Source: Deltaproteobacteria bacterium (lineage in GTDB: Bacteria; Desulfobacterota; Syntrophobacteria; Syntrophobacterales; Syntrophobacteraceae). From it: a stretch of 64,000 bases of DNA. Numbering within the stretch: the first letter of the stretch is position 1; every line of letters begins with the position of its first letter. The DNA lies in assembly GCA_021777755.1 (NCBI GenBank), contig JAJYDE010000010.1, positions 1-64,000 of the forward strand. The letters run 5' to 3'. A program made the position numbers and the translations under genes. The notes below the pieces were generated by a model. It saw only the letters and a list, made by a program, of their open reading frames with translations. It did not search any database and was not told where the DNA came from. Shown in pieces: positions 14,333 through 43,308 of the stretch.

Positions 14333-15820
14333 ATGAACAGCGACGAAAACGGGGAGGCGGGCGCGCTCCTCTACCGTCTCGCAAAGGGGGTAAAATATCG
14401 TCAGGTGGAAGGCCGTCCCACTCTCGTCCTGGACTATCCCCTGAAAGTTGTGCGCCTCGACCCCGTGTGGAGTTCGCTATTTATATTTAGCGACCTGGCT
14501 TCCCGCGGGACCTTCTACCTTGAAAATTCCATAGACCAGGTCGGTCGTCCGAGTTCGCAAAAGACCGAGCGCTTCCTTAATTTGCTGGTCCGGAAGGGTT
14601 TTCTGGAAAGCTCGGGCACAGAGTCGCTCTTTTCCCCTCCCTTTGTTTCCGTGATCGTTCCCGTGCGCAATCGGGCGGAAATGATCGCAGAATGCCTGCG
14701 CTCCCTCCATGCGCTCGATTATCCCCGTGAAAAAATTGAAATCATCGTCGTCGATGATGCCTCCCAAGACAATACTTCGGCAGTTGTCTCCGAGTTTCAA
14801 GTTAAACTCATCCGCCTTCCCGAGCGCAGACAGGCCGCATGGTGCAGGAACAGCGCCGCCGGGCAAGCTCGGGGCGAGCTTCTGGCCTTCATAGACTCCG
14901 ACTGCCTGGCCGATGCGCTCTGGCTGAAGGATTTGGTGCCGGCCTTCCGGGACCCGGCCGTGGGAGCGGTCGGAGGTGTTGTCGAGGCCTATCGGGGCCA
15001 AGGAGGATTGGACCGCTACGAGACGGTTAAATCCTCGCTGAAGGTCAGTTCCAGGCACAGACGCTCCGGACCCGACGACCGCCTTTTCTATGTCCCTTCC
15101 TGCAATCTTGTCGTTCGAAAAGAGATCTTTTTGCAAGTTGGCGGTTTCAGGGCCGACCTTCACGTGGGAGAAGACGTGGACCTCTGCTGGAGGTTGCAGG
15201 ATCACGGGTTCGAGGTGGAATACAGGCCTTCCGGAAAAATCCATCACAAACACCGAAACCGCTTGTGGCCTTTCTGTTTGAGACGCTTCCAGTACGGGAC
15301 TTCCGAGCCGATGCTCCAAAAGCTCCACCCGGAAAGGAAGAAAACTTTTCCTGTTCCTCCGACGGCCTTTCTCTTCTGGGCAGTGAGCGCCCTGTCGGCG
15401 GCGCTTCGAACCTTTCCCCTGGCCGCAATGGGTCTTGCCATCCTTTTCGGGGAGTCTTTCCAAAGGTTTTGGAAAATGCGCCAAAGCAAAATCCCGTTGG
15501 ATTTAAAAGAGGTCGGCCTTGCGGTTTTTCGAAGCTGCCTGAGCTTCTTTTACCATTGCTGCGCGTTCGTTTCCCGTTACTATCTAATATGGGCCTTCCT
15601 TCTTGCGCCGCTTTTCCCCTCCACATCGTTGCTTCTTTTCTCCATGCACCTTTTGACCGGGACGGTCGAGTACCTGACGCGCCGGCCTCAATTGTCCCCT
15701 TTCGAGTTCGCCCTTTGCTTTACACTGGAACAGATGTCCTACCAGGCCGGCGTCTGGTGGGGATGCATGAGAAACCAAAATTTTTATGCCGTCATGCCAA
15801 AAATAGAAATCCGTTTCTAA
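14333..15820 (+). CDS. mftF: Mycofactocin-type glycosyltransferase (MftF-like)
   Basis: 495 residues. Residues 1-95 form a PqqD-like winged-helix part (TFYLENSIDQVG), followed by a GT2 domain from about 103 (PFVSVIVPVRNRAEMIAEC). The nucleotide/metal site has VVDDASQDNT (139-148) and DSD (188-190), the acceptor-side motif is HVGEDVDLCWR, and the C-terminus has membrane-seeking helices (about 345-470). An N-terminal PqqD-like part fused to GT2 is the layout of MftF, which adds a beta-1,4-glucan chain to premycofactocin. The genes mftA and mftBC elsewhere in the window support this. Without them it could be called only a GT2 enzyme. Confidence 0.75.
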   Translation: MNSDENGEAGALLYRLAKGVKYRQVEGRPTLVLDYPLKVVRLDPVWSSLFIFSDLASRGTFYLENSIDQVGRPSSQKTERFLNLLVRKGFLESSGTESLFSPPFVSVIVPVRNRAEMIAECLRSLHALDYPREKIEIIVVDDASQDNTSAVVSEFQVKLIRLPERRQAAWCRNSAAGQARGELLAFIDSDCLADALWLKDLVPAFRDPAVGAVGGVVEAYRGQGGLDRYETVKSSLKVSSRHRRSGPDDRLFYVPSCNLVVRKEIFLQVGGFRADLHVGEDVDLCWRLQDHGFEVEYRPSGKIHHKHRNRLWPFCLRRFQYGTSEPMLQKLHPERKKTFPVPPTAFLFWAVSALSAALRTFPLAAMGLAILFGESFQRFWKMRQSKIPLDLKEVGLAVFRSCLSFFYHCCAFVSRYYLIWAFLLAPLFPSTSLLLFSMHLLTGTVEYLTRRPQLSPFEFALCFTLEQMSYQAGVWWGCMRNQNFYAVMPKIEIRF

Positions 15821-15833
15821 AAAAGGGAGAAAG

Positions 15834-16973
15834 GTGAGCGATTCTTCGCTCGGCATAGCCGCCCGGCTTTTGGCGAAAGGGTTGCGGTATCGGTTCATGA
15901 AATGGACCGGGAGGCCTGGAAAATTGCAGGCGGCAAGCCTCGAAGTCACCCATCGCTGCATCGCCCGGTGCATAATGTGCAATATCTGGAAGATCCCCGG
16001 AGATGTTCCGGAAATCTCGAATGAACGCTGGCTTTCACTGCTTTCCTCCCCCTGGTTTTCAGATCTTAGGGAGTTGGATGTAACGGGGGGCGAGCCTTTT
16101 TTAAAAAGCGATCTTTTCGATCTCCTCGCGGGCGTGGCGGAACTCAAAAGCGGCAACCTCAAGGCCCTGAGATCGATCGCCGTTACGACCAACGGCCTGC
16201 TGCCCGAAAAGGTGATAGGGGAGACGGAAAAAATCGTCCGGGAGTTGGAAAGGCATGACATAGAGCTTGTGGTAGTTTGTGCGATGGACGCCGTTGGCTT
16301 CACTCACGAGCGGATCAGGAACTTTCCCGACGCCTGGTCCAGGGTCGACGAGACCATCGAGGGACTTGTGGGGTTGCGGCAGAGGCATTCTCTCATAATA
16401 GGGCTCAAGACCACCGTGCTTCCGATAAACGTCGGAGAACTACACGGGGTGGCGGCTTATGCGGAGGCGCGCGGACTTTTTACGATCGTCTCGCCCCGCA
16501 TCATAACGGAGGGGCGCTATCTGAACAGGGATATGGCCGCCAGCCTGGCCTTCAGTCCTGAAGACCTCCGGAAGATGATCGACTTCTACCAGGGTGAGCC
16601 ATTCCACTGGAGTTACCACCGTGAGATGTTGCTCAAATATTTTAAGGGCGGTGTCGCTAAAAAACCCTGCGCCTGCGGCTTCAACTATCTCTTTGTGCGC
16701 AGTAACGGAGACGTTTATCCGTGCCCGCTGCTGGGCGCGTGCGCCGGTAACGTTAATGATGAAAAACTGGAAAACATCTTCCGCTCGGAGACGGCAAAAC
16801 GGATCCTCAAAAAGGCGGGAAGATTTCCGCAATGTCGCACGTGCACGGAACCGGGGCTCGAACGATATGCTCTTCCCTCCGAGGGTTTTTCCTATCTTTT
16901 ACTCCTTCTAAAGACGGGCGGCACCAAGTTCTTCGAGGCCCACCGCCACATGGGGCTAAATAAATACTTCTAG
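15834..16973 (+). CDS. Radical SAM/SPASM-domain protein of unknown substrate
   Basis: 379 residues from a GTG at 15834 with GGGAG 7 nt upstream. The radical SAM cluster motif is CIARCIMC in LEVTHRCIARCIMCNIWK, followed by DVTGGEPF. The C-terminal SPASM/twitch part shows CACGFNYLFVRSNGDVYPCP and CRTC. The layout is that of peptide-modifying or heme-biosynthesis-like enzymes. It starts 13 nt after the MftF-type gene, so it is likely to act with it, perhaps on a mycofactocin derivative. It is clearly distinct from MftC at 40500. Function is not known. Confidence 0.75.
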   Translation: MSDSSLGIAARLLAKGLRYRFMKWTGRPGKLQAASLEVTHRCIARCIMCNIWKIPGDVPEISNERWLSLLSSPWFSDLRELDVTGGEPFLKSDLFDLLAGVAELKSGNLKALRSIAVTTNGLLPEKVIGETEKIVRELERHDIELVVVCAMDAVGFTHERIRNFPDAWSRVDETIEGLVGLRQRHSLIIGLKTTVLPINVGELHGVAAYAEARGLFTIVSPRIITEGRYLNRDMAASLAFSPEDLRKMIDFYQGEPFHWSYHREMLLKYFKGGVAKKPCACGFNYLFVRSNGDVYPCPLLGACAGNVNDEKLENIFRSETAKRILKKAGRFPQCRTCTEPGLERYALPSEGFSYLLLLLKTGGTKFFEAHRHMGLNKYF

Positions 16974-18960: not shown

Positions 18961-19980
18961 CTTATGTTCTCCTCGATGTCATTTATGCCAGGTTGCGTTT
19001 AAAATCTTATCGACGTGATGGCGCCAAGCACCACCACTATCGTAGTGGCTTGATTTATCCCCGCCCGATCTTGAACACAACTTTTCGCCAACTGCCGGTT
19101 CGGATCAAAAAACGAAGTTCTGTATCCGGAAAAGCAAGCAGTGTTTCCCCTGGTCCTTGTGAAAACCGGAGGCGGGTGACCGCTCCCCGGTCCACGCTGG
19201 ACCATCCGGAGCTTTATAGACATCGACGGGTGTTGATTTGGCTGCTTCACGAGGAGGATTCCCGGTGAACGGACTTATATTGGCCATGTGTTGTCCATTT
19301 CCCGGGGCTACCCACTTCCCTCCAAACCGCCCTTGAGCAACAAGCCTGCCATCAGACAAGATCCCTTACCCGAGGCCGAATCAGGCCATGGGCCGATGGG
19401 ATTTGTTTAATAAATGAACGGTCTGCAAGTGGCAAAAATACCCATAACCGGCCACGGCCAAGTCCTGCAACCGCAAAGCAGGCCGAAGCGGGGGGGGCGT
19501 CATGTAAAATGGAGGCATAATGTCTCATAACGCCACATGCGGATATTTGCGGCTCCCCGCAATCTCTTCTGCGAGTGCGGCAAGCACGGGAGAAAGCTCA
19601 AAAATGCGTTTGCCTCTCTGAAATGTTGCGGCGGGGCCTTTTGGGACGTTATGCCACACTGAACATAACGCACGTCGCGATCTCCGGCCCCATCGTAGGG
19701 GAGGGCTTGCGCCGCGAGGTTTTGCTGACCACTTCCGCCTCAGTTTCCGCCTCTTTATAAGGATCGGCCCTCGATAGGCGGGGCTGATTCGTTGGCAATC
19801 AACAGGGTGGAGGATGTGGCGCGATTTTTGTAATTTGCACAACCTCGACGACTAATTCCCCTGCTGCTGTGGAATCTGCTGTTCTGAACACGCTCTCCCC
19901 GCTTCTCGATGTGATTCTCATCTATTAGTCAAGCACCAATGTGGCTGTAGAGATAACAATCAACCAATAAGAAGGTAAGG
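18961..19980. other. Degenerate region with no intact gene, about 1 kb
   Basis: Between the FIST gene and the aldehyde dehydrogenase fragment I find no intact gene on either strand. It holds a minus-strand aldehyde dehydrogenase remnant (19105-19359), described separately. The rest (19360-19980) shows only short, low-quality frames and a purine-rich leader ending in AGAAGGTAAGG before the next start at 19981. It looks like decayed DNA. Confidence 0.6.
19105..19359 (-). pseudogene. N-terminal remnant of an aldehyde dehydrogenase (antisense copy)
   Basis: A reading frame of 84 residues whose first half contains GGKWVAPGNGQHMANISP, nearly matching [18 protein letters not shown] of the dehydrogenase fragment at 19981 on the other strand. 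Similarity ends after about 40 residues (KSTPVDV) and the rest is unrelated. No catalytic part is present. It is evidence of duplication, inversion and loss of an aldehyde dehydrogenase locus here. Confidence 0.6.
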
Positions 19981-20679
19981 ATGGGAAAAGTTTACGAGGC
20001 CCCCGGAAAAGCAGGAAGCGTTGTATCGTTAAAACCGCGCTACGAAAATTTTATCGGGGGCAAATGGGTAGCACCGGTTCAAGGGCAGTACATGGCCAAT
20101 ATCAGCCCGGTAAACGGACAACCTTTTTGTGAGGTGCCCAGATCAACCGCGGCGGATGTCGAGCTGGCCCTCGACGCGGCCCATAAAGCCAAAGACGCCT
20201 GGGGCGCCACATCGCTTAACGAGCGGGCGGCCATTCTCAATCGCGTGGCCGAGGCCATTGAGGCCAATCTGGAGATGCTCGCCGTGGCCGAGAGTTGGGA
20301 AAACGGCAAACCGGTGCGCGAAACGCTTGCCGCCGATATCCCCTTGTCGGTCGACCACTTTCGCTATTTTGCCGGAGCTACTCGCTCCCTTGAAGGCACA
20401 TTGACCGAAATCGATAAAGACACCGTGGCCTATCATTTCCATGAGCCCCTTGGCGTGGTCGGGCAGATCATTCCTTTCAACTTCCCTCTGTTGATGGCGG
20501 CCTGGAAGATCGCTCCCGCTCTGGCCGCGGGCAACTGCACCGTAGTGTGGAAGCACACTCAATTGATTCTCGATATTGGAGAAGGAGAGCCGGAGGGTTT
20601 CTCGTTAGCCGCCGGTAAGAACAGCCACTTTATGACCAAGTCTCGCGTATGCTTGTGTCGCCCCGTGGAATCCGCGTGA
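19981..20679 (+). pseudogene. Truncated NAD-dependent aldehyde dehydrogenase
   Basis: 232 residues against about 500 for the family. The N-terminal part is well kept: [15 protein letters not shown], then [14 protein letters not shown] of the NAD-binding domain, up to [12 protein letters not shown]. In intact enzymes this is followed by the PAEQTP segment and later by the catalytic Glu and Cys. Here the frame turns unrelated after residue 191 (about 20553), so no active enzyme can be made. It resembles ExaC-type acetaldehyde dehydrogenases. A full ribosome site precedes the ATG, so the break is recent or the fragment is still translated. Confidence 0.8.
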
Positions 20680-20720: not shown

Positions 20721-20748
20721 AGCGAGGGGCGCCTGCTGGCCCCTCGCT
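20721..20748 (+). promoter_or_regulatory. Perfect hairpin just upstream of mftA
   Basis: A 10-bp perfect stem (AGCGAGGGGC with GCCCCTCGCT) and an 8-nt loop, ending 31 nt before the mftA start. There is no T-run, so it is not a classic terminator. It could set a 5-prime mRNA end or insulate mftA from the decayed gene upstream. Confidence 0.5.
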
Positions 20749-20779
20749 CTCCTCTGCTTCGAGGAAGGAGCGAAAAATC

Positions 20780-20899
20780 ATGGAAACTCAGTGCGGTAGT
20801 GAAATATCGACAGAGAAAGTCGATGTGGAAGGACCTTTCGTCCTTGAGGAAATCGTCATTGAAGAACTGGCCATAGACGGAATCTGCGGGGTGTATTGA
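20780..20899 (+). CDS. mftA: Mycofactocin precursor peptide MftA
   Basis: 39 residues: METQCGSEI..., then FVLEEIVIEELAIDGICGVY to the stop. The C-terminal I-D-G-x-C-G-V-Y is the signature of MftA; MftC decarboxylates the terminal Tyr and links it to the preceding Val, giving the redox cofactor precursor. The FVLEEIVIEEL leader is the part MftB recognises in this family. AGGAG lies 9 nt before the ATG. The maturation genes mftB and mftC are about 20 kb away at 40229 and 40500. Directly downstream are the broken isochorismatase gene and two mycofactocin-type flavoproteins. It is too small for ordinary gene calling. Confidence 0.93.
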   Translation: METQCGSEISTEKVDVEGPFVLEEIVIEELAIDGICGVY

Positions 20900-20955: not shown

Positions 20956-21285
20956 GTGGCTAAACCCAATACCTTGCGGAAGTTGGCCGGACTGGAGGAT
21001 AACCCGGCGAGCCTGAGCGAGTCGACTCTGCTGATGATCGATTGCCAGAACACCTACCGCACGGGCGTAATGCAACTGAGCGGGGTGGAAGCCGCTCTCG
21101 ACGAAGCGAGCCGCCTGCTTGCGCCGGCCCGGCAGTTGAGGGCTCCGGTAATCCATATCCAGCACGATTCAGGTCCCGGCTCTCCTTATGACATCCGCGC
21201 AGAGATTGGCGCCATCGCCGACAAGGCGATGCCGGTCAGAGGAATAGAAATCATCCATGTCGAATCAGCTGTTTTCACCTCTTAA
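20956..21285 (+). pseudogene. Truncated isochorismatase-family cysteine hydrolase
   Basis: About 109 residues from a GTG at 20956 with GGAGG 6 nt upstream. The N-terminal half of the fold is intact: LLMIDCQNTYR with the catalytic Asp, then APVIHIQHDSGPGSPYD and GAIADKAMPVRG. In the family this is followed by the catalytic Lys and Cys. Here the frame leaves the family after PVRG and ends in unrelated residues overlapping the next gene, so both are missing (full length is about 180-200). It appears to have been cut by the junction that now brings mftA next to the OYE genes. Confidence 0.75.
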
Positions 21286-23206
21286 ATTGGGCAGGGCGAG
21301 CATAGCGAACCGCTTTTGTTTTCTTGCCCATAGAACGAATTTCCCCACTCCCGGTCTTATGACGGAGAGGCACGTGGCCTATTATCGGCGCAGGGCCGAA
21401 GGGGGGTGCGGACTTATCGTCGTTGGCGAGATCGGCGTCCATCCGCATGACCGCCCCTGGGAGTTCATGATCGACGGCTACGATCGAAAAGTCCTTGAAG
21501 GCTACAAAGAGCTTACCTGCGCCATCCACCGGCGGCCAACGCTCGTTTTCGCCAACTTGAATCATCACGGCTTTCAGAGTAGCGGCGCCATCACACGCCG
21601 TGAGATTTGGGGTCCTTCGGCCTTGTCCGACATAGCCTTCGGGGAGACCTCCAAGGCCATGGAGCCCGAAGACCGGGAAACGGTTATTTGCGCCTTTGCG
21701 GAAGCGGCTTGCCTGGCCAGGGAAGGCGGCTTCGACGGGGTCGAGATCGATATGGGCCCCGAATCCCTTTTGCGGCAGTATCTTTCGCCGCTAAGCAACC
21801 AGCGCTCCGACGAATATGGCGGAAGCCCGGAAAACCGGATGCGTTTTCCGCTCGAAGTTTTGGCCAGGGTCCGGTCGGCGGTAGGGTTAGACTTCACGGT
21901 GGGGCTTCGGCTGTGCGCCGACGAAAAATTCTGGGGGGCCATCACCATCGATGACTCCGAGCAGTTCGCCAGGACTTTCGAAACCTCGGGCGGGGTCGAC
22001 TTCATCGACGTATCCTTGGGGACCTATTACAACCTTCACCTGATCCTCGCCTCGATGCACACGCCGGTCGGCTTCACCGTGGAGTTGGCGGAGCGCATCA
22101 AACAAGCGGTCCATGTTCCCGTTATCGCCAGCTATCAAATCGGCTCTTCGCAGATGGCCCGAAAGGTGGTTGCGGAAGGCCGGGCGGACGTGGTCGGGTA
22201 TGTGCGGCAGTTGGTGTGCGATCCCGATTTTCCAGAAAAAGTTAAAAACGGCCAGGAGGGCTCGGTACGCTATTGCGTAAGGGACAACAAGGGCTGTATC
22301 GGTCGGGTGAACCAGAACAAGGCCATCGAGTGCATTCAAAACCCGGAGGTCGGGCGCGAAGGGCAAGTTCTCACGCGCGGCGCGGCCAAGGCGGCGGTAA
22401 AAAAGAAGGTGATCGTGGTGGGGGGGGGCCCGGCGGGACTCGAAGCGGCTCGCGCGGCCCGTGTCCGCGGGCACGACGTGGCGCTCTTTGAAAGAGAAGC
22501 GGACCTTGGGGGACAGATCAACCTGATCGGCGTTCGTCCGGGTCGGCGAGGCATGGGCGCAATCATCGGCTACCTCCGCAAATCCCTTGAGGCGATCGGG
22601 ACGCCCATTGAGACCCAATTTGAAGTAACCTCCGAGTGGCTCCTCGGGCAAAACCCCGACGCGGTCGTTATCGCCACGGGTTCCAAGCCTGTCGAAAAGC
22701 CTGTCCCTGGCACCTATGGCCCGCCGGTAGTCTTGAGCGTCAGTGACGTACTGGGAGGCTGTTATCCTGTGGGCGAACGGGTGCTTTTCGTCGATGAAAA
22801 CGGGGGCCATCATGCCGCCGCCACGGTGGAATGGCTAGCCGATCAGGGCAAAAAGGTGCTCATGACGACGAGCGATCTTTTTATCGGCATCGAGCTGGCA
22901 CCAATGGGCGAGCTGTACCTGACCAGGCAGCGCCTCCTTCAAAAAGGCGTGTCGTTTATAACCGACGTCGTGGTGGACGAAATCGTCGGGGACCGGGTGA
23001 AGGCGCGGGACATCTATACCAACCAGCCGGTTTCCCTCGGCGACTACGACACCGTGGTGCTCGACATGGGAAACGTCGCCGAAGACAGTCTATACCGCCG
23101 GATAAAGGGCCGAATCAAGGAGGTGTACGCGGTGGGCGACTGCGTCGCGCCAAGAGGAATAGACATGGCCATTTTAGAAGGAAGAAAAGCGGGGGAGCGG
23201 CTTTGA
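21257..23206 (+). CDS. Mycofactocin-system FadH/OYE-family oxidoreductase, copy 1
   Basis: 649 residues: an FMN TIM barrel (about 1-335, LFSPLKLGRASIANRF, then the substrate-side SRQYLSPLSNQRSDEYGG-like segment), an Fe-S knuckle, and FAD/NAD-binding domains (KVIVVGGGPAGLEAARAA). The layout is that of 2,4-dienoyl-CoA reductase, trimethylamine dehydrogenase and the mycofactocin-linked OYE subgroups. The cluster region reads C340-VRD-NKG-C347...C359, so the second Cys of the usual four is Asp343; copy 2 keeps Cys there. The TTGA overlap with copy 2 implies coupled translation. The likely role is to pass electrons between mycofactocin and ETF; this is inference. Confidence 0.85.
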   Translation: MSNQLFSPLKLGRASIANRFCFLAHRTNFPTPGLMTERHVAYYRRRAEGGCGLIVVGEIGVHPHDRPWEFMIDGYDRKVLEGYKELTCAIHRRPTLVFANLNHHGFQSSGAITRREIWGPSALSDIAFGETSKAMEPEDRETVICAFAEAACLAREGGFDGVEIDMGPESLLRQYLSPLSNQRSDEYGGSPENRMRFPLEVLARVRSAVGLDFTVGLRLCADEKFWGAITIDDSEQFARTFETSGGVDFIDVSLGTYYNLHLILASMHTPVGFTVELAERIKQAVHVPVIASYQIGSSQMARKVVAEGRADVVGYVRQLVCDPDFPEKVKNGQEGSVRYCVRDNKGCIGRVNQNKAIECIQNPEVGREGQVLTRGAAKAAVKKKVIVVGGGPAGLEAARAARVRGHDVALFEREADLGGQINLIGVRPGRRGMGAIIGYLRKSLEAIGTPIETQFEVTSEWLLGQNPDAVVIATGSKPVEKPVPGTYGPPVVLSVSDVLGGCYPVGERVLFVDENGGHHAAATVEWLADQGKKVLMTTSDLFIGIELAPMGELYLTRQRLLQKGVSFITDVVVDEIVGDRVKARDIYTNQPVSLGDYDTVVLDMGNVAEDSLYRRIKGRIKEVYAVGDCVAPRGIDMAILEGRKAGERL

Positions 23207-25161
23207 GCGATTTCAATCTTTTGTTCTCTCCTTTAAAAATAGGGACTGTCGTGGTCCCGAATCGAATCCATTTCGCGGCTCACATGACCAATTTCGCTGA
23301 GAGCAATCGAATCAGCGAACGCCACGTCTACTACTACCGGGAAAGGGCCAAGGGAGGGTGCGGGCTTATCACCACCGAGGAGTTGACGGTCCATCCGACC
23401 GATTATGCCTACGCGCGACTGGTCGATGCCTTTACCCCGGAGGTGATTCCGGGCTTTTTGAATCTTACCCGCGCCGTTCACGAATACGATACGAAAATAT
23501 TCGCCCAGTTAAACCACAACGGGATGCAGGGAGATGGTAAACTTTCGCGGCTCCCCGTTTGGGGCCCTTCGCCCGGCCGAGACCCGCTCTTTCGCGAAAC
23601 CGCCAAGGAGATGGAACCCGAAGAAATCGAGGAGTGCGTTCGCTATTTTGCCATGAGCGCCGAATATGCCGTCGAAGGTGGGTTCGACGGAATCGAGCTG
23701 CAACTGGGACACAGTTCGCTCATCCGACAATTTCTCTCGCCCGCGTCCAATTTTAGAAATGACGACTACGGGGGGAGCTTTGAAAAGCGGCTCCTTTTTT
23801 GCCTAAAGGTCTTGAGGGCGGTGCGTAAGGCCGTGGGGGCCGATTTTACCCTGGGGGTAAGACTAAATGCCGACGAAATGCACCCAAGGGGGGGCCTTAC
23901 GCTCGAAGACGCCAAAAAGATCGCGGCGCGCCTGGAACAAACGCGCTGTATCGACTTCATGGACTTGAGCATCGGGACCTTTTACAACCTCTTCCTGGTA
24001 GAAGGGTCGATGCATACGCCGCTTGCCTACACCGCGCCTCTTGCCGCGGGCGTTCGCTCGGCCGTCTCTCTTCCGGTCTTTTGCACCAACCGCATAAACG
24101 ATCCCCACCTGGCGGAAAAAATTCTGTGCGATGGCTGCGCCGACATGATCGGCATGGTGCGCGCGCTTATCTGCGACCCGGAGTTACCCAACAAGGCCAG
24201 GGAGGGCCGTAGCGAGGACATCCGCCACTGCATCGCCTGCAACCAGGGATGCATCGGAAGAATGGGGCTGGGTCTACGACTTGGATGCATCCAAAACCCC
24301 GCCACGGGCGAGGAAAAGCAGCTTGGAACGGACACCCTCGAGCTTTGCGAAAAGCCCAAACGGGTCGTGATCGTGGGGGCTGGCCCGGCGGGACTCGAAG
24401 CGGCTCGCACGGCTGCCCTGCGTAAGCACGAGGTGCTTCTTTTGGAAAAAAGCGGGGAAGTGGGGGGGCAAAATCTCATCGCGGGCAAGGGGGCGGGCAG
24501 GCGGGAGATAACGGGGGTGACCCGGTGGCTCGGCGCGCAGGTCTTAAAGCTCGACATCCAAATCAGGCTGGGCGTTGAGGCGACCCACGAATACGTTTTG
24601 GCCGAAGACCCCGACGCCGTGGTCATTGCGACCGGGTCTTTTCCAAAGGAAAAACCGTTTCCCGGCCAATACGACTCCCCGCAAGTGGTAACTACCCGGC
24701 AGGTCCTGACGGGAGAGGCGCAGACCGGAGACAAGGTCCTGCTCATTGATCTGGACGGACATCACCAGGCCGCGGGGACCGCCGAACTTTTGGCCGAGCG
24801 GGGGAAAACGGTCCACATGATAACCTCGGCCCTCTTTGTGGGCAGCCAACTCGGACCGCTCCAGGACATCTACCTCTCGCGTCAAAGGCTTGCGAAAAAA
24901 GGGGTGACGTTTACGGCCGATATCGCCGTACTGGAAATTCAAGGGGCCATGGTGAAGGGATTGAACGTTTATTCGAACGAATTGATAGATTTTGAAGGCT
25001 ACGATACGCTGGTCCTTGCGGCTGGAAACAGGTCGGACGACGGTCTTTATTTCGCGCTCAAGGGGAAGGTGAAGGAACTCTATCGCATCGGCGATTGCGT
25101 GGCTCCCCGCAAGACCGACATGGCCGTTTTGGAAGGACACAGGGTGGGCAGGCTCTTATGA
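23203..25161 (+). CDS. Mycofactocin-system FadH/OYE-family oxidoreductase, copy 2
   Basis: 652 residues from a TTG at 23203 that overlaps the stop of copy 1; the N-terminus LSDFNLLFSPLKIG then aligns with copy 1. An FMN barrel, a complete Cx2Cx3Cx11C knuckle (C343, C346, C350, C362) and FAD/NAD domains (RVVIVGAGPAGLEAARTA) follow. All four cluster cysteines are present, unlike copy 1. Copies 1 and 2 share only moderate identity, so they are old paralogues and may form a heteromer. etfA starts inside its stop codon. Confidence 0.87.
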   Translation: MSDFNLLFSPLKIGTVVVPNRIHFAAHMTNFAESNRISERHVYYYRERAKGGCGLITTEELTVHPTDYAYARLVDAFTPEVIPGFLNLTRAVHEYDTKIFAQLNHNGMQGDGKLSRLPVWGPSPGRDPLFRETAKEMEPEEIEECVRYFAMSAEYAVEGGFDGIELQLGHSSLIRQFLSPASNFRNDDYGGSFEKRLLFCLKVLRAVRKAVGADFTLGVRLNADEMHPRGGLTLEDAKKIAARLEQTRCIDFMDLSIGTFYNLFLVEGSMHTPLAYTAPLAAGVRSAVSLPVFCTNRINDPHLAEKILCDGCADMIGMVRALICDPELPNKAREGRSEDIRHCIACNQGCIGRMGLGLRLGCIQNPATGEEKQLGTDTLELCEKPKRVVIVGAGPAGLEAARTAALRKHEVLLLEKSGEVGGQNLIAGKGAGRREITGVTRWLGAQVLKLDIQIRLGVEATHEYVLAEDPDAVVIATGSFPKEKPFPGQYDSPQVVTTRQVLTGEAQTGDKVLLIDLDGHHQAAGTAELLAERGKTVHMITSALFVGSQLGPLQDIYLSRQRLAKKGVTFTADIAVLEIQGAMVKGLNVYSNELIDFEGYDTLVLAAGNRSDDGLYFALKGKVKELYRIGDCVAPRKTDMAVLEGHRVGRLL

Positions 25162-26165
25162 TTTCGGATATCGGAACGATTTGGATCCTGGCGCGGCATC
25201 GCGAAGGCGTCTTTGATGAAACGGCCTTCGGGCTGCTTGCGGAGGCGCGCCGTTTGGCGGCGGAGCTTGGAGGCGAGGCTCGGGTGAATGCGGTGGTTGC
25301 GGCCTCGGAATTGGAGCCCCGGAATCTGATCCCGCTGGGGCGCCACGGCGCAGGCGAGATTCTCATCCTGAAAAGCCAAGCCTTCGCGCACTACCATGGG
25401 GAACTGTTTGCCGAGGCGCTGTGCGAACTGCTGGAGAAGGAGCGCCCCCCCTATTTTTTTATGGTCGAAAGCGAGGAGACGGCCGATCTTGCTCCGAGAT
25501 TGGCCGCCCGCCTGAATGCATGTCTTGTGAACAGGATCGTCGATCTAAAAACGAGTGAGACGGGGGAGTTGGTCGTCACGCGCCCGGTATCGAACGGGTA
25601 CTTGTTCGAAAAGGTGCGGTTGGAACCCGGGGCGCGCCCGGTCATTCTGTCCATGGAACCCTCCGTTCTTGCGGCCGACGAACCTGACGAGGCCAAAGAG
25701 GCCGCGATTCGCACCACCTCGTGGCGGTCGCGGGGTGTTCCCCGGACCAGGTTGCTGGAAGTAATCGAGGCCGACCCGGAAAGTCTCGGAGTCGAAGACG
25801 CGGAGATTGTCGTCGCGGGCGGCCGAGGCGCCGGCAAGGGCGAGGCTTTCCTGATTATCCACGAACTGGCGGCATGTCTTGGGGCTGCGGTGGGCGGCAC
25901 GCGTCCGGTCATCGACGCTGGAATCCTGCCTTTCGAGCGCCAGATCGGCCAGACCGGCAAAAGCGTTATCCCGCGTCTCATTGTTAACTGCGGTATTTCC
26001 GGGGCTAACGAATACACGGCCGGGATGGAAAAATCCCACTTGGCGATCGCCGTCAACAAGGACCCGGGCGCCAGGATCTTCCAGTTCGCCGATCTCGGGA
26101 TTGTCGCAGACCTTCGCGAGGTGCTGCCGCTTTTGATCGAACGGCTAAGAGAAATCAAGGAGTAG
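25158..26165 (+). CDS. etfA: Electron transfer flavoprotein alpha subunit
   Basis: 335 residues from the ATG at 25158 inside the stop of the OYE gene. The N-terminal ETF fold is followed by the FAD-binding C-terminal domain: VVAGGRGAGKGEAF, GGTRPVIDAG, GQTGKSVIPRLIVNCGISG and AIAVNKDPGARIFQFADLGIVAD, all standard for EtfA. The heterodimer with EtfB accepts electrons from flavin dehydrogenases. Unusually, etfB is not adjacent but lies 2.8 kb downstream, after a cytochrome and an HdrD-like gene, all on one strand. Confidence 0.92.
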   Translation: MISDIGTIWILARHREGVFDETAFGLLAEARRLAAELGGEARVNAVVAASELEPRNLIPLGRHGAGEILILKSQAFAHYHGELFAEALCELLEKERPPYFFMVESEETADLAPRLAARLNACLVNRIVDLKTSETGELVVTRPVSNGYLFEKVRLEPGARPVILSMEPSVLAADEPDEAKEAAIRTTSWRSRGVPRTRLLEVIEADPESLGVEDAEIVVAGGRGAGKGEAFLIIHELAACLGAAVGGTRPVIDAGILPFERQIGQTGKSVIPRLIVNCGISGANEYTAGMEKSHLAIAVNKDPGARIFQFADLGIVADLREVLPLLIERLREIKE

Positions 26166-26226
26166 AAGCAAAGACATGTTTTCTGCGAGGCGGCTGCATA
26201 TCGAGGATGCTTCCCGAGGGTTCGTG

Positions 26227-26886
26227 ATGCGGAACCTGCCGGTCCTTATCGCCTGTTGCCTGGGCGTTTTGGTGTTTTTAAGCGTTTCCGACTGTTGGGC
26301 TTATAACAACGCGCAGTGCATCCGGTGCCATCGGCAGGGCAGCCGGAAAAGCGATCTTTTTATTCCTGTTGGCGCCTTCAAAGCCTCCGCGCACGGCGGG
26401 ATGGACTGCGTGGATTGCCACACCGAGGTAAAAGATGAGGCCCACATGAGCGCGAAAAGGGCCGCCGCTGTAAATTGCGGGCAATGCCACGAGCAGAAAA
26501 ACCTCCATGGGATGAGGGAAACGGGCCGAAGCGTGGTCCAGTGTTACGAGTGCCACACCAAACACGCCATACTGCCCAAGAGTAATCCCAATTCTTCGAT
26601 CTACCCCGCAAGGCTCAAAAAGACCTGCGCCGGGTGTCATCCGGTGGAAACGGGGAAGACGGGCTACCTGGCGTGGTTATTAACGCTTCAGATAAAATGG
26701 CACAAAAAAGCGGATTTTTCCAAGGCCTACAGCCGGTATGACTGTGTCGGATGCCACCAGGGGCAGGCGGCCCACGGAGAGCTCCGCGCCGTGGACGCCC
26801 AGACCTGCGGCGTGTGCCATCTGCCAAAGAAAGGTCGTGCGCCCCTTTGGATAACTATTCATCCTCGGGCGAGTTTAACGAAATAA
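26227..26886 (+). CDS. Seven-heme periplasmic cytochrome c
   Basis: 219 residues from the ATG at 26227, which begins a clear signal peptide (MRNLPVLIACCLGVLVFLSV); the ATG at 26176 is an alternative. Seven CxxCH sites are visible: CIRCH, CVDCH, CGQCH, CYECH, CAGCH, CVGCH and CGVCH. It is exported and should carry electrons in the periplasm. Its place between etfA and the HdrD-like membrane protein suggests it exchanges electrons with the quinone side of that complex. I do not see a named family; it resembles the small tetra-to-octaheme cytochromes of Desulfobacterota. Confidence 0.85.
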   Translation: MRNLPVLIACCLGVLVFLSVSDCWAYNNAQCIRCHRQGSRKSDLFIPVGAFKASAHGGMDCVDCHTEVKDEAHMSAKRAAAVNCGQCHEQKNLHGMRETGRSVVQCYECHTKHAILPKSNPNSSIYPARLKKTCAGCHPVETGKTGYLAWLLTLQIKWHKKADFSKAYSRYDCVGCHQGQAAHGELRAVDAQTCGVCHLPKKGRAPLWITIHPRASLTK

Positions 26887-27007: not shown

Positions 27008-28900
27008 TTGTTCACCGCTTTTGATCCGTTGCTCATTGCGACAGCCCTTCTCATCATGGTCGTCGGGACCCGGAGGCGATGGTCTTTCTGGCGAAAAGGA
27101 AGAAGCGAGAACCGACCCGGCGACTGGAAGGGCCTTTCGGGCTACCTGCTCTTCCAAAAAAAGATCTTGAAGGGCGGGTGGGGTGGAATCGCCCACATGG
27201 TTCTCTTCTGGGGCGTATTGATCCCCCTGGTCGTGATCGTGCTCGCACAGTTCGCTTTCGTTATGCGCCCTGGCCCGGCCCACGCCCTCGCGTTTATTCT
27301 GGATCTCGCGGGCGCGGCGGCGATGGCCGGCGTTCTCTTTTTCCTTGTCCGGAGGGCGGCGAGGTCTTTCAAGACATCCGGCGTCTCTTCGGAAATGCCG
27401 TGGCCGGCCGCCTTGCTGTTCCTAATTCTCCTTAGCGGGTTCATCGCCCAGGGGACCCGCCTGAACCTTGTTCCAGCGCCTTTTTGGACCGCGCCCGTCG
27501 GATGGCTTTTTTCCAGGGTGTCCCCTTCCTCTCCGCTGGCCCTCCAGCTTGCCATCCGGTTGCATTTTTTCGCGGTGCTGGGCCTTTTCGCCCTGCTTCC
27601 TTTCACCTCGTTGCGCCATGTGCCGGCGGGGGCACTAAATGTCTATTACAGGCGGAAAGGTCCTCGAGGGGTTTTGAGGCCGGTTTCTTTCGAAAAGGGT
27701 CCGCTTGGAGCCAAAAGCACGGCCGATCTTACGTGGAAACAGTTGCTCGAAGCCGAAGCCTGCGTCTCCTGCGGCCGCTGCGAACAAAATTGCCCCGCCT
27801 TTCTTTCGGGTAAGAAGCTTTCCCCCCGCAACCTAATGGGGAAGATTTTCAAACAACTGGAGGCGCCGGAAAGCTCCCTTGCGGGCGAGGCCGTGAGCCT
27901 TGAAGAAATTTGGTCCTGCACGACCTGCATGGCCTGCGTCGCCCATTGTCCTCTCTATATCGAACCGATGGACAAAGTGGTGGACATGCGCAGATACGAG
28001 ATCCTCGGCAAAGGCGCCGCGCCGGTCGAGGCCCGGCCAATGCTCCGCGACCTGGAGCTTTTCGGGGATGTGAACGGAAAGGGGATTTCCCGCAGAACGG
28101 ATTGGGCGCTAAACCTCGGGGTCCCGATTCTTTCCGCCACGAGTGAGCAGCCGCAGGTCCTGTTGTGGATCGGATGTTCGGGAGCGTTCCACCCAAAGTA
28201 CCGGGAAACCGCCCGCAACATGGTGAAAATTCTCAAAAGGGCGGGTGTGTCTTTCGCGATCCTCGGGGGCGAGGAGGGGTGTTGCGGCGATCCGGCCAGG
28301 AGACTGGGGGAGGAATCTCTTTTTCTCGATCTTGCCCGAAAGAACATCCTGCGCTGGCAGCGTCATTGTTTTAAAAAAATCGTGGCGCTCTGTCCCCATT
28401 GCTTCAACACGCTAAAAAACGAATACCCGGTAGTGGCCGAAAAGATGGGGACGGAGGCCAGGACCGAAATAGAAGTTGTTCATGCTTCGGAATTTTTGCT
28501 TAACATCATCGAGGGGAAACAAATCACGTTGAAATATCCCGTAAAGGGACAAGCGGCCATTCACGACCCCTGCTACCTGGGGCGGGCAAACGGGATCTAC
28601 GCCCCTCTCAGAAAAATCGTCAAGGCGATCCCGGGCCTTTCGCTGCGCGAGTTGGAGCGAAGCGGTGAAAAGGGGTTTTGCTGCGGGGGGGGCGGAGGCG
28701 GAATGTGGCTTCACGAAACAAAGGGGGTCCACATCAATGGTCTAAGGGCCGCCGAGATCGCGGGCAGCGGAGTCGGGCTCGTTTCGACCGCATGCCCCTA
28801 TTGCCTGACCATGCTTGAAGACGGCCTCAATGCGCTCGAATTGGAACGGCCGATCAAGGTCGAAGACATCATCGATATCGTATCCGGCTCTTTGGGGTAG
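27008..28900 (+). CDS. HdrD-like membrane Fe-S oxidoreductase (ETF-to-membrane link)
   Basis: 630 residues from a TTG with a GGAG site. The N-terminal 220 residues hold about five membrane helices. Two 4Fe-4S sites follow (CVSCGRCEQNCP and CTTCMACVAHCP), then two CCG-type cysteine-rich domains (EGCCGDPARR and GFCCGGGGGG) as in heterodisulfide reductase subunit D. Such proteins encoded with etfBA in syntrophs and sulfate reducers link ETF to the membrane menaquinone pool. Here the gene sits between the cytochrome and etfB, which fits that role. Confidence 0.88.
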   Translation: MFTAFDPLLIATALLIMVVGTRRRWSFWRKGRSENRPGDWKGLSGYLLFQKKILKGGWGGIAHMVLFWGVLIPLVVIVLAQFAFVMRPGPAHALAFILDLAGAAAMAGVLFFLVRRAARSFKTSGVSSEMPWPAALLFLILLSGFIAQGTRLNLVPAPFWTAPVGWLFSRVSPSSPLALQLAIRLHFFAVLGLFALLPFTSLRHVPAGALNVYYRRKGPRGVLRPVSFEKGPLGAKSTADLTWKQLLEAEACVSCGRCEQNCPAFLSGKKLSPRNLMGKIFKQLEAPESSLAGEAVSLEEIWSCTTCMACVAHCPLYIEPMDKVVDMRRYEILGKGAAPVEARPMLRDLELFGDVNGKGISRRTDWALNLGVPILSATSEQPQVLLWIGCSGAFHPKYRETARNMVKILKRAGVSFAILGGEEGCCGDPARRLGEESLFLDLARKNILRWQRHCFKKIVALCPHCFNTLKNEYPVVAEKMGTEARTEIEVVHASEFLLNIIEGKQITLKYPVKGQAAIHDPCYLGRANGIYAPLRKIVKAIPGLSLRELERSGEKGFCCGGGGGGMWLHETKGVHINGLRAAEIAGSGVGLVSTACPYCLTMLEDGLNALELERPIKVEDIIDIVSGSLG

Positions 28901-28929: not shown

Positions 28930-29778
28930 ATGAGAATTATTGTGTGTGTGAAACAGATTTGCCAGGTGTACGCCAGGAGCGGGATGGACCCGAGGTCTTG
29001 GTTCGTTGCGCCCGAGGATAAAGTCTACCGCGTCAATCCCTTCGATGAAGCCGCCCTCCAGTTGGCGGCCAAGGTCAAAGGCGCTTTGGCCCGAACGGAA
29101 ATCAGACTGCTGACTTTGGGCCCGCTTATAGCCGAGGCCGAATTGCGACGAGGCGTGGCCATGGCGGGAGCTGATGAACTTATCCAACTTGTGTCGCAAA
29201 CGGCCCCGGATCCTTGGGCCAAATCGCTCATCTTGGCCCGCGCAGTCAAAATGATTGGCGCGGACCTTGTTTTATGCGGCAAAGAAGCCTTGGATACCAG
29301 GCATGGTCAGGTGGGCGCCTTTTTGGCCCGCCACCTCGAAGTCCCTTTTGTCTCGTCGATTAAAAACCTCGAAATTTCCCCGGACGGCGCGACCGCGAAG
29401 GTGGAAAGGTCGGCGAGAAAAGGCGTTGGAGAGATTTGGGAGTCTCCTGTGCCTGCCGTCTTCAGTGTGGACATCGGGCGGGACGCTCTCCCCTACCCCT
29501 CCAATGAAGCAAAAAAGCGCGCCGAGGCTTTGCCGCTGCGCATACGGAGCTTTTCCGACGAGCCCGTCCCCCTGACTACACACCTGGGAATAGAGCCGCC
29601 ACGCCCCAGGCCGATAAAAATCCCGGCGCCCGATAGCTCTCTTCCCGCCTTCGAAAGGGTTGGGCAACTCTTTCTGGGAAGCCGCATCGAAAAGAAGGGG
29701 CTGATTTTGAGCGGGACCCCGGAGTCGCAGGTGGAGGGGATCGTTTCTTTTTTGAGAGACCATTCCCTTTTGAAATAA
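28930..29778 (+). CDS. etfB: Electron transfer flavoprotein beta subunit
   Basis: 282 residues beginning MRIIVCVKQICQVY, then VNPFDEAALQLA, LCGKEALDTRHGQVGAFLARHL and the AMP/adenine-side segment of EtfB. It is slightly longer than the usual 250-260 because of a C-terminal extension. A GAGG site precedes the ATG. It pairs with the EtfA encoded at 25158 and completes the oye1-oye2-etfA-cytochrome-hdrD-etfB block. Confidence 0.92.
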   Translation: MRIIVCVKQICQVYARSGMDPRSWFVAPEDKVYRVNPFDEAALQLAAKVKGALARTEIRLLTLGPLIAEAELRRGVAMAGADELIQLVSQTAPDPWAKSLILARAVKMIGADLVLCGKEALDTRHGQVGAFLARHLEVPFVSSIKNLEISPDGATAKVERSARKGVGEIWESPVPAVFSVDIGRDALPYPSNEAKKRAEALPLRIRSFSDEPVPLTTHLGIEPPRPRPIKIPAPDSSLPAFERVGQLFLGSRIEKKGLILSGTPESQVEGIVSFLRDHSLLK

Positions 29779-30202: not shown

Positions 30203-30364
30203 AATTAATTGTAGTATAGTTATGAGTGGTTGGCTGGAATAGGCTTTTCGAGACTTCAAAAGTCCAGCGCCGCCAAGGCAACCTTAAGACTTATCGATTC
30301 CCGGTTTTTCCCTGAAGAAAGTAACCGGAGGATTTGTATAATTCAGCAAGGAGCAGCGCCCGCA

Positions 30365-31522
30365 ATGGATGTGTACGACTCTTTACAGAAGTTCGAAGTC
30401 CCTGAAATAATTCATGGAATAGGCGCTTTGAGCATCGTCGGAAAATCCGCCAAGCGCCTTGGCGGAGAGCGCGTTCTTCTTGTTACGGACCCCGGGTTGG
30501 TCAAGACTGGCTGGGTTGATGAAACGATCGAACACCTGAGAGCCGAGGGTCTGAAATATGTTGTCTACGACAACGTGTCTACAAACCCCAAAGACTTTCA
30601 AATCGAGGAAGGCGCGCAGGTCTACGAGAAAAAGCAGTGCGATGTCATTGTCGCGGTGGGAGGGGGCAGCCCCGTCGATGCGGCCAAGGGGATCGCAATT
30701 CTGGCCTCAAACCGAGGCGCCATTCAAGATTATGAGGGATGCAACCTGGTTACCCAACCCGTGCCTCCGATGGTCTGCGTTCCGACAACGGCCGGCGCCG
30801 GCGCCGATGTCACCCAGTTTGCGGTAGTCACCAATTCCGCAAAACGCATGAAAATGGTGATCATCAGCCGTGCGATTATGCCCGAGATCGCCCTCATAGA
30901 TCCGCGTCTGCTGATGACCGAATCTCCGGAACTGGTCGCAGCCACCGGGATGGACACCCTGGCTCATGCGATAGAAGCCTACGTGTCTTCACTTTCATGG
31001 CCTCTTACCGACCCTCATGCGCTCCACGCCGTCGAACTGGTCAGCCAACACCTGGTCAACGCGGCGCGCTCCAAGGACATGAAGTCGCTTGAGGGAATGT
31101 CCTTGGCCTGCCTGGAAGCCGGCATCGCCTTTTCCAACGCCATCCTGGGCGCGGTGCACGCCCTCGCTCATCCCCTCGGCGGCTTCTATGACATTCATCA
31201 TGGGCTGGTCAACGCCGTTTTGCTGCCCGTTGTTGTCAAACGCAATATGGACCACTCCCTGGACAAGTATGCCCGAATCGCCAAAGCCATGGGCGCCGAC
31301 ACAGCGGGAATGACTGCCCGGGCGGCCGCTAAATGCGCGCTGGACCAGATCCGCAAGCTTATCGATGACCTCGGACTTCCCTCCAGGCTGTCCCAATTCG
31401 ATGTAAACCTCGAGGATATCGCCCGGTTGGCCGAATTCGCCGAAGCCGACATCTGCATGCAAACGAACCCGTACCGCTATCCCAGAGATGAGATAGAAAC
31501 ACTTTATCGCGAGGCTTGGTAA
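30365..31522 (+). CDS. Iron-containing (group III) alcohol dehydrogenase
   Basis: 385 residues from the ATG at 30365, with AAGGAG upstream; longer starts add unrelated residues. The nucleotide site is GGGSPVDAAKG (99-109). The iron ligands are D197 and H201 (GMDTLAHAIEA), H265 (GAVHALAHPLGG) and H279 (DIHHG). This family oxidises simple alcohols. In many mycofactocin genomes its members keep NAD bound and need an external carrier, which would be mycofactocin here. It is followed after 9 nt by a sensor kinase gene. Confidence 0.88.
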   Translation: MDVYDSLQKFEVPEIIHGIGALSIVGKSAKRLGGERVLLVTDPGLVKTGWVDETIEHLRAEGLKYVVYDNVSTNPKDFQIEEGAQVYEKKQCDVIVAVGGGSPVDAAKGIAILASNRGAIQDYEGCNLVTQPVPPMVCVPTTAGAGADVTQFAVVTNSAKRMKMVIISRAIMPEIALIDPRLLMTESPELVAATGMDTLAHAIEAYVSSLSWPLTDPHALHAVELVSQHLVNAARSKDMKSLEGMSLACLEAGIAFSNAILGAVHALAHPLGGFYDIHHGLVNAVLLPVVVKRNMDHSLDKYARIAKAMGADTAGMTARAAAKCALDQIRKLIDDLGLPSRLSQFDVNLEDIARLAEFAEADICMQTNPYRYPRDEIETLYREAW

Positions 31523-34712: not shown

Positions 34713-36068
34713 ATGGCTAAGACGTCAAAGGTCTGGTTCGCGGGCGCTAACGCCACGAACTGGACAGAGAGCACGATTTGCAAGGCCAAAGATCTTTTCT
34801 ATCTGGCGGGCCTGGATAAATGCATAGAAAAAGACGACAGCGTCGCCATCAAGATTCACCAGGGCGAATGGAACCGCACTCATTGCCTGCGGCCCGAGTT
34901 CGTCGCGGCCATAGTGGAGGAAGTAAAGGCATGCGGCGGAAGGCCGTTTGTAACCGACACCACCACTTTGACCTATCATCTCTACAATAACCGCTGTACG
35001 GGTCAGTTGGCCATGGAGGGGGCCAACCGCCACGGTCACAATCCCGCAAGCCTCCAGGCCCCCTTTGTGATTTCCGACGGGTTTTCGGGCGAAGACGACT
35101 TGCGCGTGGAGCTGCCCGAAGGAAATATCCTCAAAGAGACCTACATAGCGCGTGGTTTGTACGAAGCCGACGCGTGCATAAACCTGGCGCACGCCAAGGG
35201 CCATCCTATCACCGCCTTTGGCGGGTGCATTAAAAACTTCGGCATCGGGGGCCAGTCAAAGCGGGGCAAGTATCAAACCCACCTGGCCTTTTGGGGAGAT
35301 CCCGAAGACGCCATTGGATATCCCAAGGTTAACAAGGAAGCCTGCCGGGGCACGGAGTGTCCTTATTCAAAAATGTGTGAGGACAGTTGTCCCGAGGAAG
35401 CTATCAACGTTACGCCCGAAGGGGTCGTACTCGACCACTCCAAGTGCGCTTTGTGCTACTCGTGCCAGGTGACCTGCATGTTCACCGGGATGGAAGGCAT
35501 CGGTTTCCGCGACGAGTACTTCCCCTTGGCCCAGATCGCGATGTCCGACGCCGCCTATGGCTGCATAAAGACATTTAAACCCGGCAAGATCGGTTACATG
35601 GCCTATGCGGTTGATGTCTGTCCGGAATGCGACTGTTTCCCCTGGGGCGGGTTGCCGGTGGTGCCCGATGTGGGCGTATTTGCCTCCAAGGACCCGGTGG
35701 CGATCGATAGCGCTGTTTGCGACATGATCGATAAAGCTCCCGCGACGCCCACTTCCCGTGCTGAAGAACTTGGTCTCAAGCCCGGGGAAGATAAGTTCAA
35801 GGCAGTCAATGCCTTTACTCCGCGAATCCAGCTCAAGGCCGGCGAGAAGATCGGGATGGGCACCACCCATTATGAACTGATCACCTACGAACCGGAACTC
35901 AATCCGGAGAATATATCCAAGTGGCAGACTCGCAAGGTCCCGATGACTGTCAAGCCCATGCGTCAGATATTTAAGAACCATCATCTGGCCCATGAGTTCC
36001 TGCCGTTTAAAAGAGAAGAGTTGCCCAACTGGTTGGTGGATTGGAAAAAATTCGATCCGACGGCTTAA
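34713..36068 (+). CDS. DUF362-family Fe-S protein, copy 1
   Basis: 451 residues from the ATG at 34713 (MAKTSKVWFAGAN), with AGGAG about 9 nt upstream. The DUF362 fold has an inserted ferredoxin-like region with cysteines in CRGTECPYSKMCEDSCPEEA and SKCALCYSCQVTC, about enough for two 4Fe-4S clusters. Other family parts are VAIKIHQGEWN, FVTDTTTLTYHLYNN and CINLAHAKGHPITAFGG. DUF362 proteins are widespread in anaerobes and have no settled function. This copy leads the block that runs on to mftBC and larEBC. Confidence 0.8.
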   Translation: MAKTSKVWFAGANATNWTESTICKAKDLFYLAGLDKCIEKDDSVAIKIHQGEWNRTHCLRPEFVAAIVEEVKACGGRPFVTDTTTLTYHLYNNRCTGQLAMEGANRHGHNPASLQAPFVISDGFSGEDDLRVELPEGNILKETYIARGLYEADACINLAHAKGHPITAFGGCIKNFGIGGQSKRGKYQTHLAFWGDPEDAIGYPKVNKEACRGTECPYSKMCEDSCPEEAINVTPEGVVLDHSKCALCYSCQVTCMFTGMEGIGFRDEYFPLAQIAMSDAAYGCIKTFKPGKIGYMAYAVDVCPECDCFPWGGLPVVPDVGVFASKDPVAIDSAVCDMIDKAPATPTSRAEELGLKPGEDKFKAVNAFTPRIQLKAGEKIGMGTTHYELITYEPELNPENISKWQTRKVPMTVKPMRQIFKNHHLAHEFLPFKREELPNWLVDWKKFDPTA

Positions 36069-36198: not shown

Positions 36199-37311
36199 AT
36201 GAGCAGAGTTTACTGGATAAAAGGACGAAGCAAGGACTTTCGAAAGAGCATCACGTCCAGGGTGGCGACCATTTTAGGCCTGGATGAGATGGCCGAGGTC
36301 GTGGTCCCCAACCGAAGCCTCGCCATAAAGGTCAATGTCAGCGAGTTGGGCTACGGGTACAGCCTGGCGCCTGTCGTCGTCAACTCTTTTTTCGAACAGA
36401 CCAGGGATAGAGGAGCTTCCTCGCTTGTGACCGACAGCGGCAGCCTCTTTAAGGGGCCCAGGTTCAGTGGCCAGGATTGGACCGATACCGCCATCATGCA
36501 AGGCCATGGAATAGGCGATGCGCTTGACAACCAGATGATGATGGCTGGCGGCTTCACCCACGAGGAAGGCAGATTTTGCATCTCGGAGGGCGAACACCTG
36601 GGGGGGGTCGAGCTCGGAAGTTTGATACTCGATGTCACCAATCTGATAGTTGTTTCTCATGTCACGGCTCATCCCCTGGCAGGGTTGGCCGGTGCGGTCC
36701 ACAACCTGGGCACGGGGTTGCTGACGCGCTCCGGAAAAGCACGCGTTCATTCCTGCCTGGAACTCCAATTCGACGCAAATAGATGTGAAGGCGCCAAAGT
36801 CTGCCTGGCCTACTGCCCGACCGGCGCCCTTTCCGAGGCGGGGAGCAAAGTCTCTTTCGATCCGCGCATGTGCAACGGGTGCCTGGGTTGCTTTATGACA
36901 TGTCCGGGCGGCGCAATGAGCATAAGACCAGGGACAATCCCCGTCTTCCAGGAAAGTGTCGCCGAAGCCGCCGTGGTGGTGGCCAAAAACCTGCGCGGTA
37001 AAGCCTTTTACGTCAATTTTCTCAATTCGATCACTCCTCAGAGCGATGACTATCCGTTCTCGGATATTCCATTCATCCCGGACCTTGGCGTTCTGGCTTC
37101 CGACGACCCCGTCGCCCTCGACTGGGTGACTTATCAGATGATCGTTCGAAGTCCGGGCATCCCCGGTTCGATCGCCGAAGATTTAAAAGTCCTTGAAAAA
37201 GGCGCCGACAAGCTCGAAGCGATCACCGGAACAACCCCGGCTCACATGCTCGAATACGGGGAGAAAATGATGCTTGGCAGAAAAGATTGTGAATTCCTCA
37301 TCAGCGGATGA
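36199..37311 (+). CDS. DUF362-family Fe-S protein, copy 2
   Basis: 370 residues, shorter than copy 1. The ferredoxin part has CEGAKVCLAYCP and CNGCLGCFMTCPGG (two 4Fe-4S clusters). Family parts are LAIKVNVSELGYGY, LVTDSGSLFKGP, VVSHVTAHPLAGLAGAVHNLG and PDLGVLASDDPVALDWV. The two copies are clearly related but diverged. Its tail overlaps an upstream in-frame extension of the Mrp-type ATPase gene that follows. Confidence 0.8.
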   Translation: MSRVYWIKGRSKDFRKSITSRVATILGLDEMAEVVVPNRSLAIKVNVSELGYGYSLAPVVVNSFFEQTRDRGASSLVTDSGSLFKGPRFSGQDWTDTAIMQGHGIGDALDNQMMMAGGFTHEEGRFCISEGEHLGGVELGSLILDVTNLIVVSHVTAHPLAGLAGAVHNLGTGLLTRSGKARVHSCLELQFDANRCEGAKVCLAYCPTGALSEAGSKVSFDPRMCNGCLGCFMTCPGGAMSIRPGTIPVFQESVAEAAVVVAKNLRGKAFYVNFLNSITPQSDDYPFSDIPFIPDLGVLASDDPVALDWVTYQMIVRSPGIPGSIAEDLKVLEKGADKLEAITGTTPAHMLEYGEKMMLGRKDCEFLISG

Positions 37312-37336
37312 GCCAACCATGGCGCCAGGAGACAAA

Positions 37337-39272: not shown

Positions 39273-39308
39273 ATGGATTGAGTGAGCGGGAAAGGAGGAT
39301 CGATAATT

Positions 39309-40118: not shown

Positions 40119-40137
40119 GCGCTCGGGCGCCGGCCCA

Positions 40138-40166
40138 CCCCCGGTCCCTCACGAAGAGACCGGGGG
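40138..40166 (+). promoter_or_regulatory. Hairpin between the SDR and mftB
   Basis: CCCCCGGTC (40138-40146) and GACCGGGGG (40158-40166) form a 9-bp perfect stem with an 11-nt loop. No T-run follows; AAAAGGAG is next. It may tune the level of mftBC relative to the dehydrogenase. Confidence 0.5.
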
Positions 40167-40228
40167 CACAAAAGGAGCAAATCAACGCAAAACCGCCCTC
40201 TGCCCGTTGGGCATGGAGTCTTGAAGAT

Positions 40229-42396: not shown

Positions 42397-42461
42397 CCGG
42401 CCATGCTGAAGCATGAACCGGACTCAACAGATGACGCGCATGAAGCGCAAAAGGAGTGGGA

Positions 42462-43298: not shown

Positions 43299-43308
43299 GA
43301 GGATTTAA

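Follow-up and report, generated by a model that had tools for sequence, protein, structure and literature searches.

To which mycofactocin system does a precursor gene belong when it lies far from the genes whose products would mature it? Mycofactocin is a redox cofactor known experimentally from aerobic actinobacteria. In its biosynthesis, MftB presents the precursor peptide MftA, MftC decarboxylates and cyclises Val-Tyr, and MftF glycosylates (PMC11778925, PMC7491314). MftA is a known family whose genes are often missed in annotation, and a missed gene in H37Rv has been listed (PMC3023750). The DNA analysed here, which we call the window, comes from one Desulfobacterota MAG (4.2 Mb, 103 contigs, 95.8% complete, 2.8% contamination), where it makes up the first 64 kb of contig C38. 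It carries an mftA and an mftBC pair as two separate loci on the same contig.

The mftA open reading frame (20780-20899, plus strand) runs from ATG to TGA and encodes 39 amino acids, METQCGSEISTEKVDVEGPFVLEEIVIEELAIDGICGVY, with IDGICGVY at the C terminus. Chance is excluded as an explanation because two MftA models each score the product above their curated cut-off, NF040489 variant_MftA (45.5 bits, cut-off 30, E 6.8e-12) and TIGR03969 (42 bits, cut-off 25, E 5.9e-11). These matches bear out the sequence-only reading, which had proposed a hidden 39-residue mycofactocin precursor gene in exactly this frame. The product is a short peptide that ends in the Gly-Val-Tyr core that is modified in this family, and MftB, MftC and MftF each score above their curated cut-offs in the same genome. 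A Shine-Dalgarno sequence, GAAGGAG, lies 9 bases 5' of the ATG; reading frame, start, Shine-Dalgarno and 16-residue core are all intact. The leader is only moderately conserved among the MftA peptides compared. Adjacency to mftB and mftC, an organisational feature outside the family model, is absent: the distance is 19.3 kb, close to the 20 kb first estimated. A second mftA beside mftBC or elsewhere would have spoken against this assignment. None was found in the assembly, where the profile search returned a single MftA and an independent DNA pattern (DGxCGxY-stop) matched only at 20780; the missing 4% of the MAG could contain another mft cluster.

Table 1. Features of the mycofactocin region, in window coordinates
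Feature	Position	Strand	Remarks
mftF glycosyltransferase	14333..15820	+	380 bits, cut-off 280
rSAM2, unnamed radical SAM/SPASM protein	15834..16973	+	directly 3' of mftF
Second short ExaC-like fragment	19201..19329	-	56% over 43 aa
Remnant: ExaC aldehyde dehydrogenase aa 1-190 fused to last 36 aa of DUF779	19981..20679	+
GC-rich hairpin, 10 bp stem	20721..20748	+	z -2.75; directly 5' of mftA Shine-Dalgarno
mftA, mycofactocin precursor	20780..20899	+	type II, core IDGICGVY; profile and DNA pattern
Remnant: isochorismatase family, N-terminal part	20956..21285	+	PF00857 positions 2-52 of 175
OYEa, mycofactocin FadH/OYE family 2-like	21257..23206	+	744.6 bits, below equivalog cut-off 793
OYEb, mycofactocin system FadH/OYE oxidoreductase 2	23215..25161 (start approximate)	+	TIGR03997 875.7 bits, cut-off 793
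EtfA, electron transfer flavoprotein alpha	25095..26165	+
Multihaem c-type cytochrome	26176..26886	+
HdrD-like Fe-S protein, CCG domains and NarI-like membrane part	27008..28900	+	candidate ETF:quinone oxidoreductase
EtfB, electron transfer flavoprotein beta	28930..29778	+
ErcA-like Fe-dependent alcohol dehydrogenase	30230..31522	+
DUF362a	34713..36068	+	conserved type I cassette gene
DUF362b	36199..37311	+	4Fe-4S domain
MrpORP-type Fe-S carrier	37274..38233	+	type I cassette
SDR3, mycofactocin-coupled SDR subfamily 3	39282..40118	+	NF040490 503.7 bits, cut-off 385
Empty site; type I mftA sits here in relatives	40119..40228	+
mftB (type I)	40229..40519	+	single copy in genome
mftC radical SAM/SPASM maturase (type I)	40500..41534	+	single copy in genome
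larE, larB, larC, nickel-pincer nucleotide synthesis	41527..44496	+	type I cassette

The surroundings of mftA were first described as decayed, with a truncated aldehyde dehydrogenase gene on one side and a truncated isochorismatase gene on the other. Both truncations are real, since the domain matches are partial, but the description fails for the genes downstream, which from 21257 to 29778 are intact and on one strand with mftA at their head. On the upstream side, the exaC-DUF779 pair is intact in a congener (G010:C14, 83-84% identity) and about 1.2 kb between the two ends is missing in the window, so the aldehyde dehydrogenase remnant reads as a deletion chimera left by an internal deletion. 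The hairpin between this remnant and mftA has no T-run and was not called by the terminator scan; it may be a terminator of the remnant gene or a leader structure. Promoter and terminator scans of 20500-21400 found nothing. Gene remnants thus form a small patch around mftA, which itself heads an operon that looks functional. The assignment of the neighbouring flavoproteins to the mycofactocin type also stood, as the second OYE exceeds the TIGR03997 cut-off.

The maturase genes belong to a different cassette. The window MftC retains CNLNCVHC and the SPASM cysteines, and MftB, MftC, MftF, both OYE proteins, ETF and SDR3 are all full length. The gene immediately before mftB is SDR3, not mftA: the SDR3 stop codon runs straight into the mftB leader, and compared with two congeners, G007 and G008, an mftA (mftA1) is cleanly missing. 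Profile and DNA pattern searches of the genome found no second mftC and no second, type II mftBC.

To place both loci, we scanned 84,980 species genomes with the window MftC and annotated the relatives' loci with the window's own proteins. The scan gave 27 loci, 20 of them of Desulfobacterota type (67-78% identical), which fall into a recurrent type I order: (ErcA-HK-RR)-DUF362a-DUF362b-Mrp-SDR3-mftA-mftB-mftC-(mftF)-LarE-LarB-LarC. Of the Desulfobacterota-type mftC loci, 19 extend beyond the 5' end of mftB, and in every one of them mftA stands immediately 5' of mftB. A type II order, mftA-mftB-mftC-OYEa-OYEb-EtfA-cyt-HdrD-EtfB-SDR-mftF-rSAM2, is found in G101:C142/C147 and G136:C170, and related OYE/ETF clusters occur in G080, G076, Pelotomaculum (L054) and Dehalococcoidia (L051). 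Type II MftC is 53-57% identical to the window MftC. The MftC tree places the window sequence in the type I clade (support 96/98), together with those of G007 and G008, and type II MftC falls outside. The precursors divide along similar lines. VDGICGIY (Ile-Tyr) ends 19 of 21 type I-linked MftA peptides, the exceptions being G007 and L049, which end in GVY; IDGICGVY (Val-Tyr) ends every OYE-linked and unlinked MftA peptide compared. The window peptide is of the Val-Tyr class, and mftA with the six genes downstream of it matches the type II order, its own mftBC missing.

Within the family, mftC is present in 3 of 26 genomes (the window genome, G007 and G008), and by DNA pattern mftA is absent from 8 of 10 congeners. 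G007 is the informative congener. Its contig C266 carries mftA2-OYEa-OYEb-EtfA-cyt-HdrD-EtfB without mftBC beside a complete SDR3-mftA1-mftBC-LarEBC cassette, and so shows an intermediate state of reciprocal loss. Over a 24-base core pattern, the window mftA has 2 mismatches to G007 mftA2 and 5 to G007 mftA1, and it shares its TGA stop with mftA2. On these grounds, the precursor that survives is the type II copy, still in its original position, and the maturase that survives is type I. Extra precursor genes occur elsewhere among the relatives: G007 has four mftA for two mftC (L058, L060, L061), one of the four without any mft gene nearby, and G101 has three for two (L063, L064), one of them beside a zinc alcohol dehydrogenase. 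Precursor copies thus seem to travel with client enzymes.

We consider it likely that the window genome holds a functional mftA from a type II cassette that has no mftBC of its own, complemented by the mftBC of a type I cassette that has no mftA. An anaerobic ancestor apparently held two mycofactocin gene sets, of which one now contributes the precursor and the other the maturation enzymes; these loss states are read from one MAG. From gene content and known mycofactocin biochemistry, we infer that maturation most likely occurs in trans, with the type I MftBC acting on the type II precursor. MftC in this genus is probably tolerant of a Val-Tyr precursor, because the type I mftA1 of G007 already reads GVY. 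The precursor would be expressed as the first product of the OYE/ETF operon, and type I MftB would bind its leader. Decarboxylation of the tyrosine and Val-Tyr cross-linking by type I MftC would follow, after which MftF would add sugars. The cofactor could be reduced by nicotinoprotein dehydrogenases (SDR3, Fe-ADH) and pass the electrons to the OYE/ETF/HdrD-cytochrome chain, from which they would reach the quinone pool; judging by gene content, these OYE-ETF-HdrD-cytochrome genes are likely the electron outlet.

MftD and MftE equivalogs gave no match over cut-off in the window genome or in six relatives, some of which have the full mftABC cassette. Leader removal and the MftD reaction must then fall to proteins other than these equivalogs. 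rSAM2 is a candidate for the missing mycofactocin-modification enzyme where MftD and MftE are absent. It also lies 3' of mftF in G007:C186, G136:C170 and the Dehalococcoidia locus L051, and within about 20 kb of mftF in G080.

Could the precursor instead be the leftover of a dying type II cassette in a genome that no longer makes mycofactocin, with mftBC and mftF on their way out? The truncated ExaC/DUF779 and isochorismatase genes on both sides of mftA are what such decay would leave, mftA1 and the type II mftBC are already gone, and the MftD/MftE equivalogs are absent. We nevertheless regard this as unlikely: the latter absence is shared by relatives with complete mftABC, mftA itself is intact from its Shine-Dalgarno through its core, and the maturation, OYE, ETF and SDR3 proteins remain full length.

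The two other readings concern how the loci came to be apart. If mftA were the ordinary type I precursor gene of the SDR3-mftBC cassette, moved 19 kb by a rearrangement, it would account neatly for a genome with a sole mftA and a cassette lacking exactly one, and the variant model NF040489 does give the peptide a slightly higher score than TIGR03969. This is nonetheless very unlikely, given that G007 has one mftA before OYEa and another before mftB, and that the window core is nearer to that pre-OYEa copy in its DNA, its stop codon and its IDGICGVY signature. The lowest probability goes to an assembly artefact, in which the MAG dropped mftA1, a second mftBC or both. An assembly of 103 contigs with the completeness and contamination given above, and with a 1.2 kb deletion chimera nearby, invites the suspicion. 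Against it, one contig carries both loci, and across the missing mftA1 the sequence is continuous between an intact SDR3 and an intact mftB, which makes an artefact improbable; moreover, G007 independently lacks mftBC in its OYE cassette. Reciprocal loss between two cassettes remains our preferred account.

In the type I cassette of most of about 20 Desulfobacterota, mftABC is joined to larE, larB and larC and to a DUF362 protein, and DUF362 and LarA belong to the same Pfam clan, CL0471 (PMC11770544). In DUF362a, an H-x9-K-x15-H motif (H164/K174/H190) is invariant in 12 of 12 homologues and has the spacing of LarA H174/K184/H200 (PMC7583248); E52-x-x-R55 resembles LarA D72-x-x-R75. These residue patterns suggest a mycofactocin-coupled nickel-pincer activity for DUF362a. 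When PDB chains were searched with DUF362a by sequence and by profile, the only matches were of ferredoxin type, with none to LarA, and its AlphaFold model is poor (pLDDT 43). The DUF362a paralogue DUF362b (27% identity) carries 4Fe-4S domains, has lost the triad lysine and is possibly a non-catalytic partner. Elsewhere in the window, genes for PafA-like, Dop-like and Mpa/ARC proteasome ATPase proteins (2843-7999) form a Pup-proteasome locus in a desulfobacterial genome. FIST-domain (NosP-like) sensor genes at 17851-18960 and 44536-45702 flank the mycofactocin region, the latter preceding a hybrid histidine kinase gene.

In mycobacteria, MftG is the route of mycofactocin electrons to respiration, and its absence from about a quarter of mftC genomes has been left as an open question (PMC11778925). 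An mftA heading an OYE-ETF-HdrD-cytochrome operon gives a concrete anaerobic outlet to test. Tentatively, Desulfobacterota may hold two chemically distinct mycofactocin systems, an Ile-Tyr system with LarEBC, DUF362 and SDR and a Val-Tyr system with an OYE-ETF-HdrD outlet, possibly fused here by reciprocal loss so that one maturase serves the other's precursor and the OYE-ETF-HdrD operon replaces MftG; this broader picture is doubtful as yet. The reciprocal loss is in itself a natural test of whether a Val-Tyr precursor is a substrate for the MftBC of an Ile-Tyr system. A precursor gene can move along with client enzymes and leave the maturase behind, and genome mining that expects mftABC together would consequently call such genomes precursor-less.

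In the open-licence literature, we found no paper that links mycofactocin to Lar genes or that describes Ile-Tyr precursors or a split mftA, nor did we find there the reciprocal-loss arrangement or the Ile-Tyr/Val-Tyr division between two cassettes. The consecutive numbering of the NCBI models NF040489 and NF040490 suggests that the variant precursor and its SDR are known to curators. Compared with the actinobacterial mftABCDEF(G) cluster (Haft 2011, PMC3023750; PMC11778925), the window genome shares an MftA with C-terminal Gly-Val-Tyr, MftB, MftC, MftF and nicotinoprotein partners. It differs in that mftA lies 19 kb from mftBC, in having no MftD or MftE equivalog, and in its Fe-ADH, SDR3, OYE and ETF partners, as opposed to an mftG neighbourhood. 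The cut-offs of both NF040489 variant_MftA and the NF040490 SDR are passed here, and in relatives the two genes are an adjacent pair, whereas the SDR/mftBC cassette of the window lacks its own mftA, and the surviving precursor is Val-Tyr in place of the Ile-Tyr usual for this cassette type. The closest parallels to the OYE operon are the Pelotomaculum and Dehalococcoidia clusters, which have OYE_2-like proteins, EtfA, EtfB and mftF, with rSAM2 in the latter. Those clusters carry mftC inside, unlike the OYE cassette of the window, for which mftBC is supplied by the other cassette.
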